A DNA stretch of 64,000 bases from Jiangella aurantiaca (GTDB lineage: Bacteria > Actinomycetota > Actinomycetes > Jiangellales > Jiangellaceae), in NCBI RefSeq assembly GCF_004349105.1, contig NZ_SMLB01000010.1:1-64000 (forward strand). The letters run 5' to 3'. Position numbers and translations under genes: made by a program. This document shows positions 3,563 to 52,424 of the stretch, in pieces. The notes beneath the pieces are model-generated. The model was not told the origin of the DNA. It worked only from the letters and a program-made list of their open reading frames with translations, and made no database searches. How positions within the stretch are numbered: position 1 is the stretch's first letter; the number at the start of each line of letters is the position of its first letter.

Positions 3563-4521
3563 GCCGCACGCACCCGCGGGTCGAGGAGGCCGTAGGCGAG
3601 GTCGGTCAGCAGGTTCGCCACCACGACCGCGGCCGCCAGGAGCACGAACGCTCCCTGCAGGACCGGGAAGTCGAGCTGCCCGACGGACTCGTAGATCGCC
3701 CGCCCGACGCCAGGGTAGGCGAAGATCGTCTCGGTCAGGACCGCGCCGCCCACCAGGAAGCCGAGCTGCAGCCCGACCAACGTCGTGGTGGGCAGCAGCG
3801 CGTTGCGCAGCGCGTGCTTCCAGACCACCCGCCGCTCCGGTGCGCCCTTGGCCCGCGCCACCGTGCAGTACTCCTCGCCGAGCGCGTCGATGAGGTTCGT
3901 CCGCAGCGTGAGCACGTAGGCGCCGATCTGCAGCACGACCAAGCTCAGGCACGGCAGCACGAGGTGCCGCAGCATGCTCGCGTACGCCTCCAGCCCGTAC
4001 ACGTCGTCGTCGATGGCGCCGCCGATCGGGAACCAGCCGAGCCAGAGCCCGAACGTGTAGAGCAGCGCGATGCCCACCGTCGGGACGAACAGCGACTGCC
4101 CGACCACGCCGCCGACCTGGATGAAGCGGTCGAGGGCGCCGCCGCGGTGGGTCGCCGCCAGCACCCCCAGCGGCAGCCCGATGAGGAGCGTCACCACCAG
4201 CGCGCTGCCGGTGAGGATGAGCGTCCAGGGCAGCCGTTCCAGCAGCACGTCCGCGACCGGGATCGACTGCCGGAACGACACGCCGAGGTTGCCCTGCAGC
4301 AGCTCACCGAGGTAGGCCACGTACTGCACCGCGAGTGGCCGGTCGAGCCCGAAGTCGGCGAGGATCTGCTCGCGCTGGTCCTCGCCCATGGTCGGGCTCG
4401 CGATGGCCAGCGCCGGGTCGCCCGGCAGCAGCCGCACGAGGAAGAACGTGACGCTGACCGCGAACCAGAGCGTGAGCAGGCCGCGGAGCAGCCGCAGTGA
4501 AGCGAACCGGAGCAGGGCCAT
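3559..4521 (-). CDS. ABC transporter permease, DppB/OppB type
   Basis: 320 residues, about six transmembrane helices. The first helix (residues 10-30) is followed by LLPGDPA, the hallmark opening of DppB/OppB permeases, and by the GNLGVSFRQ segment near 78-85. The EAA loop EEYCTVARAKGAPERR is at about 216-231, and the C-terminus has the usual DPRVR ending. It forms the heterodimeric channel with the downstream C-type permease. The gene follows the substrate-binding protein gene by only 6 bases. The ATPases are not in this leftward run but in the divergent rightward gene at 8475. Confidence 0.92.
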   Translation of the reverse strand: MALLRFASLRLLRGLLTLWFAVSVTFFLVRLLPGDPALAIASPTMGEDQREQILADFGLDRPLAVQYVAYLGELLQGNLGVSFRQSIPVADVLLERLPWTLILTGSALVVTLLIGLPLGVLAATHRGGALDRFIQVGGVVGQSLFVPTVGIALLYTFGLWLGWFPIGGAIDDDVYGLEAYASMLRHLVLPCLSLVVLQIGAYVLTLRTNLIDALGEEYCTVARAKGAPERRVVWKHALRNALLPTTTLVGLQLGFLVGGAVLTETIFAYPGVGRAIYESVGQLDFPVLQGAFVLLAAAVVVANLLTDLAYGLLDPRVRAA

Positions 4522-4527
4522 GAGCGC

Positions 4528-6147
4528 TCAGTCCGCCGCCCGCACCGACGCCAGGGACTGCGGGTTGACCACCGAGAGCAGCTCGCTGGGCTTGGGCTGG
4601 AAGCCGGTCCACTCGCTCGAGGCCGCGAAGGTGAACTGCTCGACGTACATCACGTTGTCGTAGACCTGGTCGGTGACGATGCGGGCCAGTTCCTGCAGTG
4701 GCCCGCGCGCGTCCTCGACGGTCAGCGCCGACGACGCCTCCGCCAGCAGCCGGTCGATCTCGGGGTCGTTCACGCCGGCGTAGTTGATGAAGCCGTCGGG
4801 CGAGAACAACAGGCCGAAGTTCGACTGCGGCTCGTCGATGATCGCCCAGGAGCCGGCGTAGATGTCGAAGTCGCGCTCGTTGGTGCGGGCCAGGTACGTG
4901 TTGCGCTCCAGCCCGGCCAGCGTGATGGTGATGCCGGCCTCGGCCGCCTGGTCGCGCACCAGCTCCGCCCACGAGGAGATGTTCGGGTCGCCGGCGTCGT
5001 AGATCATCTCCAGCTCGAGGTTCTCGACACCGGCCTGCGCCAGCAGGTCGCGGGAGAGCTCCGGGTCGTACTCGTACTCCTCGGCCGTCTCGTCCACCCA
5101 CTGGCTGAACGTCGGCGTCAGGACGCTGGAGTTCGACGACACAGCGTTGCCGCCCAACACGACCTCGCGGATGGCCTCGTAGTCGACGGCGTGCGCGAGC
5201 GCCTGGCGGACCTCGACCCGGTCCAGCGGCGGGCGGCGCATGTTGTACTGCATGTGCGCCCAGCCCAGCGACGGGACGCTGAACGTCTGCAGCGAGTCGT
5301 CACCGGAGACGTCGCGGGCCACCGACGGCGGCAGCGCGTTCCCGATGAGGTCGATCTCGCCGGAGCGCAGCGCCAGCACCTCGGTGTTGACGTCGGGGTA
5401 GACGCGGAACACCACCCGGTCCAGCGCGGCCCGGCCGCCCTCAGCCAGGGGGTAGTCGTCCACCGCCTCCAGGACGTAGCGCTGGCCGCGTTCGACCTGG
5501 GTGAGCACGAACGGACCGGCCGACACCCAGTTGGAGTCGTTGGCGAAGTCGGCCACCGTCGGTGCCTGCCCGAACACGTGCGCCGGGACGATGGGCATCC
5601 AGAACCCGATGCTGCTGAGGAACGCGCCGTCCGGCCGGTTCAGGGTGAACTCGATCCGGGTGTCCGAGACGGCTGTCGCGGACTCGTACGCGCCGATCAT
5701 GCCGGAGACGGTGCCCAGCTGCTCGGCCTTGACAGCGTCGATGGTGAAGACGACGTCCTCGGCGGTCAGCGGCTCGCCGTCGGACCACTCCATGTCGTCG
5801 CGGAGCTCGATCCACGCGCTCAGCCCGTCGTCGCCGTAGCCCCACTCCGTCGCCAGCGCCGGCACCTTCGCGCCCTCGTCGTCGATGGTCATCATCGCCG
5901 GGTATATCAGGTTCGTGACCCAGCTGTCGGTGCGGCTGTTGCCGACCAGCGGGTTGAAGTTCACGACGTCCGCGGTGGTGCCGATGGCCAGCTCGCCGCC
6001 GGCATCGCCTCCGCCGGAGGAGTCGCCGGACTCCTCGGACTCGCCGCCCGACGCACCGTCGGGCTCGGACGGGACACAGGCAACCAGAGTGAGGGCCACC
6101 GCCGCGCCCAGCGCGACGCGCCGGCCCAGACCGCGCGTAGTGCTCAT
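4528..6147 (-). CDS. Peptide ABC transporter substrate-binding lipoprotein (SBP family 5)
   Basis: 539 residues. The N-terminus is a lipoprotein signal with lipobox LVAC and Cys24 as the lipidation site, then a Ser/Gly/Glu/Asp-rich linker and a family 5 solute-binding domain (ELAIGTTADVVNFNPLVGNS onward; GEPLTAEDVVFTID near 165). Family 5 proteins bind di- and oligopeptides, nickel or opine-like solutes outside the membrane. Its start ATG overlaps the stop of the dipeptidase gene (ATGA). With two permeases next to it and a fused double ATPase across the divergent promoter, it completes an importer; neighbours being peptidases points to peptides or peptide-like amides as cargo (inference). Confidence 0.92.
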   Translation of the reverse strand: MSTTRGLGRRVALGAAVALTLVACVPSEPDGASGGESEESGDSSGGGDAGGELAIGTTADVVNFNPLVGNSRTDSWVTNLIYPAMMTIDDEGAKVPALATEWGYGDDGLSAWIELRDDMEWSDGEPLTAEDVVFTIDAVKAEQLGTVSGMIGAYESATAVSDTRIEFTLNRPDGAFLSSIGFWMPIVPAHVFGQAPTVADFANDSNWVSAGPFVLTQVERGQRYVLEAVDDYPLAEGGRAALDRVVFRVYPDVNTEVLALRSGEIDLIGNALPPSVARDVSGDDSLQTFSVPSLGWAHMQYNMRRPPLDRVEVRQALAHAVDYEAIREVVLGGNAVSSNSSVLTPTFSQWVDETAEEYEYDPELSRDLLAQAGVENLELEMIYDAGDPNISSWAELVRDQAAEAGITITLAGLERNTYLARTNERDFDIYAGSWAIIDEPQSNFGLLFSPDGFINYAGVNDPEIDRLLAEASSALTVEDARGPLQELARIVTDQVYDNVMYVEQFTFAASSEWTGFQPKPSELLSVVNPQSLASVRAAD

Positions 6148-46875: not shown

Positions 46876-47309
46876 CTCTTTCGACCAGAACCATCACGGC
46901 CGGATGAACCGGCCGGATGCTCGCCACCTCCGATGACGGCGGCTCGAGCGGCGGAGCTCACGGTGACCCGTGGGTATCCACAGCCCTTCCGGTCTGCCGT
47001 CCGGCTCCGTCAGCCGCCCCGCCCATCGGTGTGCGGTTCGCCGGGTCACCCCGACGTGGCGAACTGCCGTTCTCCGTCCGGCCCGCCCTCGACTCCTCGG
47101 TGCCTTTGACCAGGTCACCCCGGTTTTCCGGCTCCGAACTCGTCGATGACGATGGAGCATTTCTAGTCCTGTCGCGGGGGCTGCACAAGGGGGTTCGGCG
47201 AAGATTTCCGGACCGGGCCGTCACCCACAAGGCTGTCCACAAGTGGCTGAGCGTGCGCCGCCAGTTACCCACACCCCTGTGTACAAAATTTGTGGACAAC
47301 TCGGCCCAC
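46876..47309. other. Intergenic region with cluster of DnaA-box-like 9-mers
   Basis: No gene. Sites resembling the actinobacterial DnaA box TTGTCCACA: GTATCCACA 46974-46982, TCACCCACA 47221-47229, CTGTCCACA 47233-47241, TTACCCACA 47265-47273 and a perfect TTGTCCACA on the minus strand at 47291-47299. Four lie within 80 bases. No dnaA or dnaN nearby. Confidence 0.5.
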
Positions 47310-50300
47310 TCAGCGCCGGTTCAGCACCCGCGTGACGGCCGCGACGACCGTCGTGGCGAGCACCGCGCCGCAGAAGACGAGCCCGTACGCCACCACGAGG
47401 TCCAGCCCGCGCGGGTCCCAGGCGGAGTCCTGGCCGAGACTCAGGAGCGGGATCAGCAGGTCGAGGGCGTAGCCGAACGGGTTGAACGTCGGGTGGACGT
47501 TCACCTCGACCGGGTCCAGCTCCTTGGTCCAGAAGTACGCCGTCCCGAACGCCAGCAGGCCGACGAACCAGATCGCGGCCAGGCCGGGCCGATAGCCGAA
47601 GCCGACGGTGACGTCCTGCAGGTAGCCCCAGCCCTTCATCAGGAGCTGCCCGAACGTCGACGTGCCCAGCAGGTCGCGGCGGTGTCGCTGCCGGGCCAGC
47701 AGGACGGTGCGGGCGGCGGCGTCGTCGCCGGAGCGGCGGTAGTGGCTGGCCAGCTGCTCGTACACCTGGTGCTGGTAGCCGGTGGGGTCGCGGCGCAGCC
47801 AGGCCAGTGCGGTGTCGACGTCGGCGTCGCCGGGGTCGTCGAAGGTCAGGCCGGACAGCATGACCATCGACGTGTCGGTGGGGTCCATGACCAGGGTGCG
47901 GACCTCGGAGCCGCGCAGGTCGACGGCGATCTCGCCGGCCGGCAGCTCGACGGTGCCGGCCTGCAGCTCTGACAGGTCGATCAGCGCCCGGCCGCCGGTG
48001 GCTGTCGTGGTGGCGACACTCAGGTCGTTCATGAGGATCCGCCGGGCCACCACGGCTTCGTGCAACGAGACCAGCGGCCGCACCTGTTCGGTGCCGGCCG
48101 CGCGCGAGTCCGCGGCGTGGTCCTGGCTGATCGTCACCTCCTCGCAGGAGAGCTCGCCGATGTGCGCGCGGTCCAGCCGCACCTCGCCGACGATGGTCAG
48201 CGGGCCGTTCCCGGTCGACCGCCGCGAACCGAGCTCGACCGCCCCGGACACCTGCAGGTTCGGCGCGAACACCGCGGTCCGGCCCGGGTTCGTCAGCGTG
48301 GTGCGGCCGCGGACCAGCAGCCGGCCGGCCAGCACCGCCTCGGCCAGCGAGAACTGCCCGGTCAGCTCAACGTCGCGGCACTCCAGATTGCCCTCGACCT
48401 TGAGTCCGGAGGCCGCGACGATCTCCCCGACCGGGACGCGGCCGTCGTCCCGCTCGCCGGTCTCTCCGAGCAGCGCCGTCAGCACTACGCTGAAGCCCAC
48501 CTCGGCCCGCCGCAGCGCCACGCCGCCGGTCAGCTCGGCATCGCGGACGAGGAACGACCCGCCGACCGCGACCTGGGCGGCGTCGACGGCGAACCGGCCC
48601 GGGTGGTGATAGCTGCCGCCGTCGACGACGATGTCGCCGCCCACTCGGGACCGCGCGACGATGACCGCGCCGTCGACGTCCAGCCCGGTCAGCCGGCACA
48701 CGCCGCAGGTGACGTCGGGCAGCAGCAGCGCGGTCTGCCCGGGCGCGGCGAACTCGGCGTGCCGCAGGCTCAGCCCGGCCGAGAACGTCGACCCGGTGAG
48801 CCGCAGCGCACCGCGGAACACGCCGCCGTCGACCAGGAACTCGTCGGACATCGTCTGGATCGCACTGAACACGATCGGCCCGTCGGTCGACCCGATGCCG
48901 TGCCCGGCCAGCGTCGAGCCGCTGAGCACGAACCGGCGCCGCACGTGCGCCTGATCGAACGAGACGGTGCCCTCGATCTCGGCCTGCTCGAACGAGACCT
49001 TGCCGCCGACCTGCACGCCGGTGGCGTCGAGCGCCCGGTGGTCGGGTCGGTGCAGCACGGCGCCGTCGAGCACGAGGTCGCCGCCGACCTTGCCGTCGCG
49101 CATCACCACGCCGCCGTCGGCCCAGAAGCCGCCGAGGTCGGTCGAGTACGGGTCGTTGCCGACGACGAGGTCGCCACGGACCTCGATGCGCGGCGCGATG
49201 AGCGCGTTGCCGTCGGGGTTGTAGATCTGCGCGCCGGTGAGCACGACGCTGTCGGCGACCGCCGCGGTGAGCCGGACGGCGCCGTCGCAGACCAGGCCGC
49301 GGGCGGTGAACCGGCCGTCGACCCGCAGGCCGATGGCGTCGACGCCCATGCCGGACGCCTCGATGTAGGCTCCGCGCAACAGGACGTCGCTGCGGACCCG
49401 TGCCTGGAACAGCCGCAGCTGGCCCTGCACCCGCACGCCGTCCATGGCCAGGCTCTTGCCGAGGTCGGCGTGGGCGAGGTCGACGTCGCCGCGGCAGCGG
49501 AACCGGCGCCCGAGTACCAGCCGCTCGCCGATGACGGCCCGCGACGCGGCCAGCGCGCGGTAGCCGCCGTCGAGGTTGGCGCCGCTGAGGAAGACCGCCG
49601 CGCCGACGCGGATGCCCTTGATGTTCAGCCCGCCCATGGCGGACAGCCGCTCGAGGTTGAGGTCGCGCCGGACCGTCGCCGACTGCAGGCTCACCGCCCA
49701 GGAGTCGTCGGGGTTGGTGACCCGGGTGCCGACCAGCCGGACCGAGGTCGCCTCCATCTCGTCCAGCATCACCCGGCCGACCAGCCGGGCGCGGTCGGCG
49801 ACCAGGGAGCCGACCGCGGCGCCGATGCCGACCATCGCGTACCCGCCGGGGTTGCTGATCTCGACGCCGCGCAGCGCGAGGGTGTCGCGGACGACGCCGC
49901 GCGGGATCAGCATGCGGCCGAGGATGCGGGTGCCGTTCTCGGCCTCCAGCCGGTCGGCCTCGATGTCGCTGGCGACGAGCGCGTCGCCGCCGGGGTTGGC
50001 CAGCACCGCGGCGTCGAACACGACGCTGCCGGCGATCGTCGCGTGGCCGAGGTCGACGGTGCCGCTGCAGCGCAGGCCGCGGCCCTGCACCCCGCCCGCC
50101 ACCAGCCGGCGGGCGTCCAGCGCCACGCCGTGCCGGTTGCGCAGGACGGCGTCGGTGAGGTCGACCCGCCCGGCCACCGTCGCGCCGGACAGCACGATCG
50201 GGCCGCGGACGCGGGCACCGACCAGGCCGAGCCCGCCGTCGACCCGCAGCCGCTCGGCGTCGACGGCCTCGCCGGACGACGCGAACAGCCGCGCCCGGGT

Positions 50301-50852
50301 GAGCAGCAGGTCGCCGCCGACGCTGAGGTTGCGGGCGTGGAACAGCGTCGAGTGGCCGTGGAACCGGCTGTCCTCGAACGACGCCGACCGATGCACGTGG
50401 GTGTCGACCATGCTCACCGAGCCGACCAGGCACTCGCGCACGGCCAGCGCGTTCTGGACGTCGACGGACTCCGTGCGCAGGTCGGGCACCCGGCAGCGGA
50501 CCAGTTCGACGCCGGCCGCGGTCAGGTCCGCGAGCACGAGGATGTCGTCGATCCAGCACATGTCCAGCCGCAGCGGCCGCTCCAGCCGCCCGTCGCGCAG
50601 CTGCAGGCCGCCGGTGATGCGCGCGCCGGTGAGCCGGACAGCGGCGCCGGGCACGCCGCCGGCGTCGCGGAGCAGCTCGTCGACGACGCGGGCGCGGACG
50701 GTGCGCGACTCGTCCCAGGCGTCGCCGGACTCGACCGAGCGGGGGTCGATGTCGCGCCCGAGGTCGGCCTCGCCGCCGCGCGCCACGGCCGACCGCAGCG
50801 CCGACTCGGCGCGGCTGAGCCTGTCGCGCACCCTGCCTCCCGGTCCGGCCAT
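47310..50852 (-). CDS. Giant repeat (beta-helix-like) membrane protein of unknown function
   Basis: 1180 residues from ATG 50852 (GAGGGTGAG just before; a TTG 27 bases upstream is the alternative). About residues 60-1000 consist of many degenerate repeats of roughly 20 residues with strands such as GGLQLRDGRLERPLRLD, GDLLLTRARL, GPIVLSGATVAGRVDL, GKVSFEQAEIEGTVSF, i.e. G-hydrophobic-x-hydrophobic spaced by A/x turns, the look of a right-handed parallel beta-helix. The C-terminus has an alpha-helical section (YEQLASHYRRSGDDAAARTVLLARQ) and about three membrane helices (LAAIWFVGLLAFGTAYFW; VVAYGLVFCGAVLATTVV). Similar actinomycete proteins are often labelled oxidoreductase without evidence. Probably a membrane-anchored scaffold or surface ruler (inference). 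Confidence 0.75.
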   Translation of the reverse strand: MAGPGGRVRDRLSRAESALRSAVARGGEADLGRDIDPRSVESGDAWDESRTVRARVVDELLRDAGGVPGAAVRLTGARITGGLQLRDGRLERPLRLDMCWIDDILVLADLTAAGVELVRCRVPDLRTESVDVQNALAVRECLVGSVSMVDTHVHRSASFEDSRFHGHSTLFHARNLSVGGDLLLTRARLFASSGEAVDAERLRVDGGLGLVGARVRGPIVLSGATVAGRVDLTDAVLRNRHGVALDARRLVAGGVQGRGLRCSGTVDLGHATIAGSVVFDAAVLANPGGDALVASDIEADRLEAENGTRILGRMLIPRGVVRDTLALRGVEISNPGGYAMVGIGAAVGSLVADRARLVGRVMLDEMEATSVRLVGTRVTNPDDSWAVSLQSATVRRDLNLERLSAMGGLNIKGIRVGAAVFLSGANLDGGYRALAASRAVIGERLVLGRRFRCRGDVDLAHADLGKSLAMDGVRVQGQLRLFQARVRSDVLLRGAYIEASGMGVDAIGLRVDGRFTARGLVCDGAVRLTAAVADSVVLTGAQIYNPDGNALIAPRIEVRGDLVVGNDPYSTDLGGFWADGGVVMRDGKVGGDLVLDGAVLHRPDHRALDATGVQVGGKVSFEQAEIEGTVSFDQAHVRRRFVLSGSTLAGHGIGSTDGPIVFSAIQTMSDEFLVDGGVFRGALRLTGSTFSAGLSLRHAEFAAPGQTALLLPDVTCGVCRLTGLDVDGAVIVARSRVGGDIVVDGGSYHHPGRFAVDAAQVAVGGSFLVRDAELTGGVALRRAEVGFSVVLTALLGETGERDDGRVPVGEIVAASGLKVEGNLECRDVELTGQFSLAEAVLAGRLLVRGRTTLTNPGRTAVFAPNLQVSGAVELGSRRSTGNGPLTIVGEVRLDRAHIGELSCEEVTISQDHAADSRAAGTEQVRPLVSLHEAVVARRILMNDLSVATTTATGGRALIDLSELQAGTVELPAGEIAVDLRGSEVRTLVMDPTDTSMVMLSGLTFDDPGDADVDTALAWLRRDPTGYQHQVYEQLASHYRRSGDDAAARTVLLARQRHRRDLLGTSTFGQLLMKGWGYLQDVTVGFGYRPGLAAIWFVGLLAFGTAYFWTKELDPVEVNVHPTFNPFGYALDLLIPLLSLGQDSAWDPRGLDLVVAYGLVFCGAVLATTVVAAVTRVLNRR

Positions 50853-50989
50853 CTCACCCTCGCCGTTGTCGGTGATCAATGTAACGGCTGCGGCAAAGCG
50901 GTTGTATGCGGACAGACCAACTCGAACGGATCCCGGCGATACGCCGTGTCGTTACGCGGCGTTCATCCGCGCATGCGATAAGAATCGAG

Positions 50990-51022
50990 AAGACCCCTCG
51001 GGGTAAGGGTCCGAGGGGTCTT
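50990..51022. terminator. Bidirectional terminator hairpin (copy B)
   Basis: AAGACCCCTCGG (50990-51001), loop GGTAAGGGT, CCGAGGGGTCTT (51011-51022), then TCAT. Twelve pairs. Compared with the copy at 46843 the fourth pair is A-T in place of G-C on both arms, while the loop stays the same. Confidence 0.8.
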
Positions 51023-51130: not shown

Positions 51131-51922
51131 TCAACCGGCCGACACCGCCTGCAACCCGGAACCGCTCGGCGCCTCCAGCGACAGCCGGTTGCTCGTGATG
51201 GAGAACCGGACCTCGCCGTCCAGCGCCGCCAGCACGACGTCCTCGACGTACGCCGCCGCGCCGTCGCAGGCCACCTCGGTCGTCACGAGGTCGGCGACCG
51301 TGAGGGTGTCGCCGTCGACCGTGACGATGCCGTTGATCTCATTGCAGCCGGTGTGGCCGGTGAGCGCGTCGCCGTCGATGCGCAGGAACGGCGCGATGCC
51401 GACCGGCACGGACGACGCCGTCTCGCCGTCGGTGAGCCCGTCGACGTCCCACCGCCGGCCGGTCAGGTCGACCGGCGGCTCCAGCACGTCGCGGTCGGTC
51501 AGCGACACCACCAAGTCGCCCGCGGTGAGGACGAGGGTGGCGTCATCGGCCAGCTCCCAGGCCGGTTCGGCGGCCAGCAGGTCGGTGAGCCAGGCGTCGG
51601 AGGCCATGACCTCCGGCTCGCAGCCCAGCTCCGTCAGCCCGAGGTCAGCGCCGACCAGGCGGCCACCCGACAGCTCGACCGGCCCGTTGGCGCTGTTGCA
51701 GCCCGCCGTGGCCAGCAGCCGGCCGTCGTCGGTGAAGTGGAGGTTCAGCGGCCCGCCGCCGGGGATGCCGACGTCCTCGGTGGAGACGAACGTGCGGCCG
51801 GCCAGCTCGGCGCCGTCGCCGTCAGTGTCGGTCGCATCGTCCGCGCCTGCGGCGGCATCGCCGCAGGCGGCCAGGAGCAGCACGACGCCCAGCAGGCCCA
51901 GGCCACCGGCCGGGCGTCGCAT
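51131..51922 (-). CDS. META (HslJ-like) lipoprotein, two domains
   Basis: 263 residues. Lipobox LLAAC (lipidated Cys20). Two META/HslJ-type domains in tandem: the first has GRTFVSTEDVG and LATAGCNSANGPVEL with a Cys in ELGCEPEVMASDAW, the second GRRWDVDGLTDG, LTGHTGCNEINGIVTV and VACDGAAAYVEDVVL. The paired Cys of each domain (GCN and GC/AC) are typical and may form a disulfide. Function of HslJ proteins is stress-related but unclear. Starts one base after the stop of the one-domain META gene, so the two genes form an operon. Confidence 0.88.
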   Translation of the reverse strand: MRRPAGGLGLLGVVLLLAACGDAAAGADDATDTDGDGAELAGRTFVSTEDVGIPGGGPLNLHFTDDGRLLATAGCNSANGPVELSGGRLVGADLGLTELGCEPEVMASDAWLTDLLAAEPAWELADDATLVLTAGDLVVSLTDRDVLEPPVDLTGRRWDVDGLTDGETASSVPVGIAPFLRIDGDALTGHTGCNEINGIVTVDGDTLTVADLVTTEVACDGAAAYVEDVVLAALDGEVRFSITSNRLSLEAPSGSGLQAVSAG

Positions 51923-51923
51923 G

Positions 51924-52424
51924 TCAGAGGTCCGTGGACGGGGCGTCGGACATCACCATCGTCAGCGAGTTGCCGTCGGCGTTGGTCAGCGTCAGCGTGT
52001 CGCCGGACGCCTCGACCGTGACCTCGCCGCTGAGCACCTGCAGCATCGAGTTGTCGATCTGCCCGAGGTCGCCGGAGCAGCCGCGGCGGGTGGAGATGAG
52101 CGGCTGGAAGGTGATGCTGGAGTCGCCCACCTCGGCCGATCCGCTGAAGCCGTTGCATCCGGTGGAGCCGGTGACGTCGCCGTTCTCGTCGATCTCGAAG
52201 TAGGCCTCCGGGTCGGACGGGCCGGCGACCGTCGCGCCGGTGGCCTGCAGCTCCTCGAGCACCCACCGGCTGCCGACGATCGGCACGGCCGGCTCGGTGG
52301 AACCGTCGGATCCGGAGTCGCCAGGGACGGCGGTGGTGTCGTCGCCGCTGTCGTTGCCGCCGCAAGCCGCCAGCAGGGCGATGCCGGCCACCGCGGCGAG
52401 GGTTCCTAGTCGTCGCATAACCAT
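51924..52424 (-). CDS. META (HslJ-like) lipoprotein, one domain
   Basis: 166 residues (or 164 from the second ATG at 52418). Lipobox LLAAC, a Ser/Asp/Gly linker and a single META domain: [53 protein letters not shown]. It shares the GCNxF/GC pattern with the neighbouring two-domain protein and was likely the template for it by duplication. Exported and anchored in the membrane. Confidence 0.88.

Follow-up and report, generated by a model that had tools for sequence, protein, structure and literature searches.

The first 64,000 nucleotides of contig NZ_SMLB01000010.1 of the soil actinobacterium Jiangella aurantiaca, referred to in the following as the window, contain a minus-strand gene at 47310–50852 that encodes a giant repeat protein with a C-terminus predicted to be embedded in the membrane. 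Our preferred interpretation is that this protein is a gated channel, in which a cytoplasmic β-helix that serves as sensor or scaffold is fused to a channel-type pore; we put the probability of this at roughly one half. Residue numbers follow the frame of 1180 amino acids that starts at an ATG. The gene and the predicted parts of its product, with the basis for each, are as follows:

47310–50831, minus strand: coding sequence from a conserved GTG, 1173 amino acids plus stop (GTG conserved in 17 of 18 relatives, GGAGG upstream; the ATG is at 50852)
50640–50831, minus strand: N-terminal helical cap, residues 8–71, with a conserved RTVRA motif (alignment, helices in the model)
47835–50639, minus strand: right-handed β-helix, residues ~72–1006 (AlphaFold2 model m4aa661616663, Pentapeptide_3 match, structural Z 23.7)
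47604–47819, minus strand: helical linker, residues 1012–1083, a TPR/PPR-like YEQLAxxYRRxGDDxxARxVLLA followed by an amphipathic helix (models, weak TPR/PPR matches)
47529–47588, minus strand: transmembrane helix 1 (TM1), residues 1089–1108 (both models, hydropathy 1.62)
47406–47480, minus strand: re-entrant pore-type helix and loop (P loop), residues 1125–1149, with D1131, P1135 and Q1141 conserved (models, alignments)
47322–47405, minus strand: transmembrane helix 2 (TM2), residues 1150–1177, with a conserved mid-helix Gly1162 (both models, hydropathy 2.31)

Family patterns found at least 591 stretches, 572 of them relatives; the best 80 were kept as named loci, so that Streptomyces and close matches are over-represented, and alignments of 31 and 43 sequences were chosen from these loci. 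The full-length AlphaFold2 model, built on the 31-sequence alignment, showed one continuous right-handed β-helix from residue ~72 to ~1006, with a mean predicted local distance difference test score (pLDDT) of 87.6 for the whole model; most of the helix exceeded 90. This is the continuous helix that the first-pass annotation had expected, rather than a set of unrelated small domains. By VIA-align, the full-length model resembled right-handed β-helices, among them the Sf6 tailspike (Z 23.7 over 326 residues), pertactin and alginate epimerases; the 50 rows were general β-helices and did not include HalA, the effector channel of the Hailong anti-phage system. Foldseek placed HalA third for the full model (E 0.031), and also listed the pentapeptide proteins QnrB1 and MfpA.

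The sequence of the helix was consistent with this fold. Pfam Pentapeptide_3 matched with an E-value of 1.3e-15 (57.8 bits, gathering score 27), whereas Bactofilin, another family suggested for comparison, reached 15.5 bits and stayed under its cut-off of 27.9. The strand–turn motif occurred 21 times, compared to a mean of 5.3 and a maximum of 13 in 300 shuffles. Hydropathy autocorrelation was high at lag 5 (z = 5.0), and the spectrum peaked at 5.25 residues, but autocorrelation was not significant at any lag of 18–25 residues, and self-BLAST at E 0.001 revealed no internal block duplication of the helix. Because of this periodicity, the rod is best described as roughly 45 pentapeptide-like coils of ~21 residues. 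The repeats of about 20 residues described previously would fit a coil of four short sides rather than a plain sequence repeat. The pitch of a β-helix is 0.48 nm, and the rod would thus be about 20 nm long.

The Pentapeptide_3 match and the presence of QnrB1 and MfpA in the Foldseek list raise the question of a DNA-mimicking pentapeptide protein that acts on gyrase, as MfpA and Qnr do. DNA mimics are strongly acidic. The helix is near-neutral, with 98 K/R and 112 D/E over 935 residues, and we rejected this idea, which we consider barely credible, on that ground. Pentapeptide repeat proteins share the 5-residue periodicity and the right-handed β-helix with the giant protein, but the latter is far longer, with ~45 coils, an N-terminal cap and a tail that tethers it to the membrane. 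Bactofilins are likewise β-helical; the giant protein differs from them in its membrane tail and its far greater length.

We also rejected an enzyme, either an oxidoreductase or a β-helix polysaccharide lyase or epimerase. The label "membrane-associated oxidoreductase" on some Streptomyces copies is unsupported. Among the records of 24 plasmid-borne homologues, six carry the label "oxidoreductase" or "membrane-associated oxidoreductase", seven are hypothetical and 11 have no label, and the fold resembles that of right-handed β-helix lyases, epimerases and tailspikes. However, Pfam and NCBIfam gave no significant enzyme family, sequence searches of the PDB found no enzyme, and there was no recognizable cofactor or catalytic domain; the likeness to described enzymes lies only in the general β-helix fold. 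Of the 17 highly conserved helix positions, 15 are G, A, L or P, with no conserved set that looks catalytic. The β-helix is also presumed to be cytoplasmic, where extracellular glycans are absent. An enzymatic function is thus very improbable, and the suspicion that the family is mislabeled in databases was well founded. No described role was found in the literature searched, as had also been stated.

Conservation is unevenly distributed along the protein. In the 31-sequence alignment, 8 of 64 columns in the N-terminal cap are at least 90% identical, including the invariant E16, R53, A54 and V56. The corresponding figures are 17 of 935 columns for the β-helix (298 of them filled in half or more of the sequences) and 40 of 169 for the tail (163 so filled), making the tail the conserved part of the protein relative to the helix. 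One cysteine in the first coils, at residue 99, is invariant in all 31 homologues although the rest of the helix is variable.

The tail was modeled separately by an AlphaFold prediction of the last 210 residues with 43 sequences, an alignment that overlaps with that of the full-length job. The model had a pLDDT of 82.4 and a predicted template modeling score (pTM) of 0.65, and showed an amphipathic helix, TM1 (1089–1108), a short 9-residue helix (1125–1133) and TM2 (1150–1178). The full-length job gave the same TM1, short helix and TM2. The middle segment is too short to cross the membrane and bears the conserved YxLDxLLPxxxxGQ. Membrane attachment at the C-terminus was thus seen in both models, while the three membrane helices counted in the first-pass annotation became two spanning helices with a re-entrant loop between them. 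Hydropathy by itself cannot count the membrane helices, as segments of the β-helix reach 1.51, compared to 1.10 for the P segment. In a wider set of 36 tails, drawn from three phyla, every tail has P1135, and Q1141 is at least 90% conserved. The stretch LGQDSAW stands where K+ channels have their TVGYG filter, and places the near-invariant Gln at the tip of the loop. Basic residues prevail on the linker side of TM1 (residues 1012–1088: 11 K/R, 7 D/E) and acidic ones in the P loop (2 K/R, 6 D/E), a charge distribution consistent with the linker being inside and the P loop outside. In the Alphaproteobacterial tails (loci L184, L185, L186, L187 and L190), the loop between TM1 and P is longer and contains two shared cysteines, which suggests an extracytoplasmic disulfide in these sequences.

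It is quite likely, judging from the models, that the tail has the fold of two transmembrane helices with a re-entrant pore loop (2TM+P), the layout of the pore in tetrameric cation channels. A Foldseek search with the 210-residue tail ranked HalA (9nyi) first (E 0.085, probability 0.91), followed by KirBac and Kir channels. VIA-align, run on chains preselected by Foldseek, gave a Z-score of 10.6 for NaK (2q69; 80 residues, root-mean-square deviation (rmsd) 2.1 Å) and the same Z-score for HalA (193 of 210 residues, rmsd 4.5 Å, 8% identity). By name, 48 of the 50 rows were ion channels or ionotropic receptors, and the two exceptions were a transmembrane protein without a name and HalA. The profile alignment placed Gly1162 of TM2, within the best-aligned stretch, on the M2 glycine of K+ channels.

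Several results weigh against the channel interpretation. All Foldseek E-values for the tail were above 0.05, the pTM of the tail model was only 0.65, and VIA-align Z-scores under ~13 can reflect merely a common arrangement of helices, so that the structural scores are no more than suggestive. We looked for sequence kinship to Ion_trans_2 by hhalign, using two alignments plus controls. Of 60 block shuffles, five attained the local score of 16.4 and three the global score of 10.6; the reversed control scored 14.0 (local) and 2.7 (global). Pfam Ion_trans_2 did not match the tail of the window protein, and matched one of 43 tails at E 0.26. A profile search of the PDB listed MthK pores only at E 5.4–9.1, and did not list HalA (9nyi). 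The TVGYG filter is absent, and the two Rhodococcus tails do not have the Gln at the loop tip. Lastly, there was no neighbor gene common to all loci among 223 neighbors from 77 loci that passed a coding filter. These neighbors formed 115 clusters, of which 108 were scanned and seven spurious-looking open reading frames were dropped.

The sequence profiles accordingly give no proof of kinship between the tail and channels. Because the profile and filter tests failed, we did not file the giant protein as a member of Ion_trans_2. Nor did we place it in the HalA/Hailong group, for which the comparisons gave no clear outcome; it is of the HalA or NaK type only in its predicted architecture. With 2TM channels such as NaK, KcsA and KirBac (Ion_trans_2), the tail as modeled shares the TM1–P helix–TM2 layout and the M2-type glycine, but it differs from them in the near-invariant Gln at the loop tip in place of TVGYG, and in profile scores that are not significant. 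With HalA, the structural alignment spans the end of the helix, the linker and the pore. However, profile searches of the PDB listed no sequence-level match to HalA, and the giant protein has a very long β-helix and is encoded by an apparent core gene. A HalB-like nucleotidyltransferase was not found among the nine window proteins scanned, nor was there a nucleotidyltransferase in the top 25 of the 151 Pfam families of the 108 neighbor representatives.

If the giant protein is indeed a gated channel, the N-terminal cap and the β-helix rod of ~45 coils and ~20 nm would lie in the cytoplasm, and the TPR-like linker with its basic flank would join the rod, at the inner face of the membrane, to the domain with two helices and the re-entrant loop. 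The acidic P loop would be outside and the C-terminus inside, so that both termini would be cytoplasmic. We infer that four copies would assemble, with TM1, the pore helix and TM2 forming an ion-conducting pore, and the four rods hanging into the cytoplasm. The rods might sense a ligand, a partner or a mechanical cue, upon which the pore would open or close, by analogy with HalA. In the Hailong study, the cytoplasmic part of HalA reportedly gates the channel (DNA gating). We know of no longer gate of this kind than four ~20 nm rods, as predicted for Jiangellaceae, would make. Poly-dA adducts of HalB block HalA (PMC13275509). We also considered an extracellular rod, and rejected it because no signal peptide was seen by eye in the N-terminus and the flank before TM1 is basic.

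The same architecture could instead be that of a cytoplasmic scaffold or ruler anchored in the membrane. Its rigid β-helix rod would bind proteins from end to end, and its channel-like tail would be only a closed, non-conducting oligomeric anchor. Most of the protein consists of the β-helix, which hardly varies in length within the genus. The missing K+ filter motif, the lack of a common ligand partner among the neighbor genes scanned and the weak Bactofilin similarity would also suit a scaffold. On the other hand, rods of different bacterial families differ in length by more than a factor of two, and conservation in the protein family is highest in the tail with its pore-type loop, beyond what a mere anchor should need. 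We regard the scaffold as possible but rather unlikely. The first-pass annotation had described a long rigid rod anchored in the membrane; the rod and the membrane end agree with this, but a tail modeled with two helices and a re-entrant loop, in the manner of a channel pore, makes it probable that the protein is not simply a rod on an anchor.

The similarity to HalA could also mean that the protein is an immune effector of the same type. It would then be an orphan channel against phages, opening upon infection and stopping growth. The Foldseek search with the tail ranked HalA highest, and the match covers both linker and pore; a copy in Acaryochloris lies near a caspase-family gene, and a few single neighbors of relatives match PADLOC models. 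However, the 17 PADLOC families each matched only one of the 108 neighbor proteins, the best being AbiLi (E 1.2e-51), and none recurred; the window protein itself had no PADLOC match. Unlike mobile defense genes, the gene was present in 20 of 22 Jiangellaceae genomes, with the same acyl-CoA dehydrogenase gene nearby in all four loci compared (L051, L053, L054 and L055). Searches of viral contigs with the family patterns gave no confirmed relative, and phage records searched with the Rhizobium homologue gave no match; a phage or viral origin of the gene was rejected on these grounds. Overall, an immune function appears improbable.

Extending the channel interpretation to the whole family is more tentative. 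The relatives might make up a large, previously undescribed family of stand-alone HalA-like channels that extends over three phyla or more. Each channel would have a non-canonical pore, with a filter around the near-invariant Gln, that is gated by a cytoplasmic β-helix of adjustable length, but we hold this to be somewhat doubtful. If true, there would be overlooked membrane channels, not oxidoreductases, in 82 of the 393 genomes sampled from the class, the number in which a search with the tail as query found a match. The β-helix rod would be a new kind of cytoplasmic gate, and the loop a new filter chemistry among tetrameric channels. HalA would gain a wider group of kin, and a wrong database label would give way to an ion-transport hypothesis that can be tested in Streptomyces, which is an easy host.

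The open reading frame itself is uninterrupted and extends for 1189 amino acids from a TTG upstream of the ATG. Seven codons inside the ATG, at 50831, there is a GTG that 17 of 18 Jiangellaceae relatives have at the same codon or the one next to it. GGAGG lies four bases upstream of this GTG, while the ATG is present at its own position in only four of the 18. Because the GTG and not the ATG is conserved, the likelier product is the 1173-residue protein. The frame claimed previously is real, as shown by its substitution pattern and its presence in 20 of 22 Jiangellaceae genomes, but its length of 1180 residues is probably slightly too great. A 973-residue open reading frame on the plus strand, 48060–50981, lies opposite the gene. 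We rejected the possibility that the giant frame is a mere shadow of this one, as its ratio of nonsynonymous to synonymous substitutions (dN/dS) is 0.14–0.37. In pairwise comparisons with 12 relatives, dN/dS was 0.14–0.37 for the helix and 0.14–0.27 for the tail, and the gene is under purifying selection in this comparison. The tail was more constrained than the helix in seven of the 12 pairs, including the four most distant, and slightly less constrained in five close pairs.

The following features flank the gene:

47292–47309, minus strand: terminator-like hairpin directly after the stop codon (weak hairpin scan)
50986–51000, minus strand: terminator-like hairpin in the gap that separates the giant β-helix gene from the META gene upstream (same weak scan)
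51131–52424, minus strand: a pair of lipoprotein-like genes that together encode three META domains, neighbors in Jiangellaceae (domain scan, locus comparison)

The hairpin scan of the region found two hairpins, compared to 1.1 expected by chance. Their positions after the stop codon and before the gene weakly suggest a single-gene transcript; no promoter-like site was found. The "duplicated flanking modules" noted earlier are probably the three META domains, which are present but say little about the family.

The gene is apparently a chromosomal core gene of Jiangellaceae, and the two genomes without it are 81% and 75% complete. Among the best 80 relatives, the nearest named tail matches were those of Jiangella rhizosphaerae (95%) and J. 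ureilytica (90%). In J. ureilytica (loci L014 and L052), an interruption near residue 883 splits the gene into two frames, through an assembly error or decay. Of the four Jiangellaceae loci compared, three have META genes near the giant gene and two have a GNAT gene. Within four genes on either side, META-domain neighbors were confined to Jiangellaceae among the 80 named loci.

Outside Jiangellaceae, relatives share the N-terminal cap, the β-helix and the linker with 2TM+P tail, with 40–48% tail identity (38 relatives). In the sampled class, up to four matches were found in one genome, which we take to be Streptomyces, and a profile search of a phylum-wide sample matched 12 of 296 genomes. Plasmid searches reached Rhodococcus, Rhizobium, Shinella, Microvirga, Roseomonas and Acaryochloris, and the family thus ranges, among the sampled relatives, from Actinomycetota to Alphaproteobacteria and a cyanobacterium. 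Length was counted from the N-cap motif, which 11 of the 80 loci do not have; these were left out. The remaining 69 comprised 65 loci outside Jiangellaceae, at 467–682 residues, and four Jiangellaceae loci, at 996–1167 residues. Many Streptomyces proteins measured ~482 residues, those of several Actinomadura-type genera 531–534, and those of Jiangella and Haloactinopolyspora 1166–1167. Weaker matches in other families sit in open frames of 1005–1168 residues (G028, G300, G330 and G353), and long forms may therefore exist outside Jiangellaceae as well.

A histidine phosphatase gene adjoins the homologue in 27 of the 80 loci of all genera, often in Streptomyces (for example, L061, L088 and L099), and another recurrent neighbor, in 30 of the 80, is taken to be phosphoglucose isomerase. 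The neighbor representatives include one PGI and two 6PGD domains. These adjoining histidine phosphatase and sugar-phosphate genes point to a stable link of many Streptomyces copies to central carbon metabolism. In other genera, the neighbors are different. A table for S. lividans (PMC6302529) has an entry for SLIV_05225/SCO6657, "Membrane-associated oxidoreductase", beside pentose-phosphate genes; from this label and these neighbors, we infer that it belongs to the family.

On a plasmid of Rhizobium sp. SL42 (L190, homologue at 3608–5332), the gene adjoins genes for monovalent cation/H+ antiporter subunits, including a Na+/H+ antiporter subunit gene, and in Shinella (L187, homologue at 3608–5332), the second gene downstream is of the NhaC type. 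A link to ion homeostasis is possible from these neighbors, which also speak in favor of a channel. The surroundings on the Acaryochloris plasmid pMB04 (L131, 1–8480) are unlike the actinobacterial contexts, with CU044_2847-family, pentapeptide-repeat and caspase-family genes nearby. On a Roseomonas gilardii plasmid (L186, 3572–5262), the homologue is present as two overlapping coding sequences, one for the helix and one for the tail, which may reflect a frameshift or a natural two-gene form.

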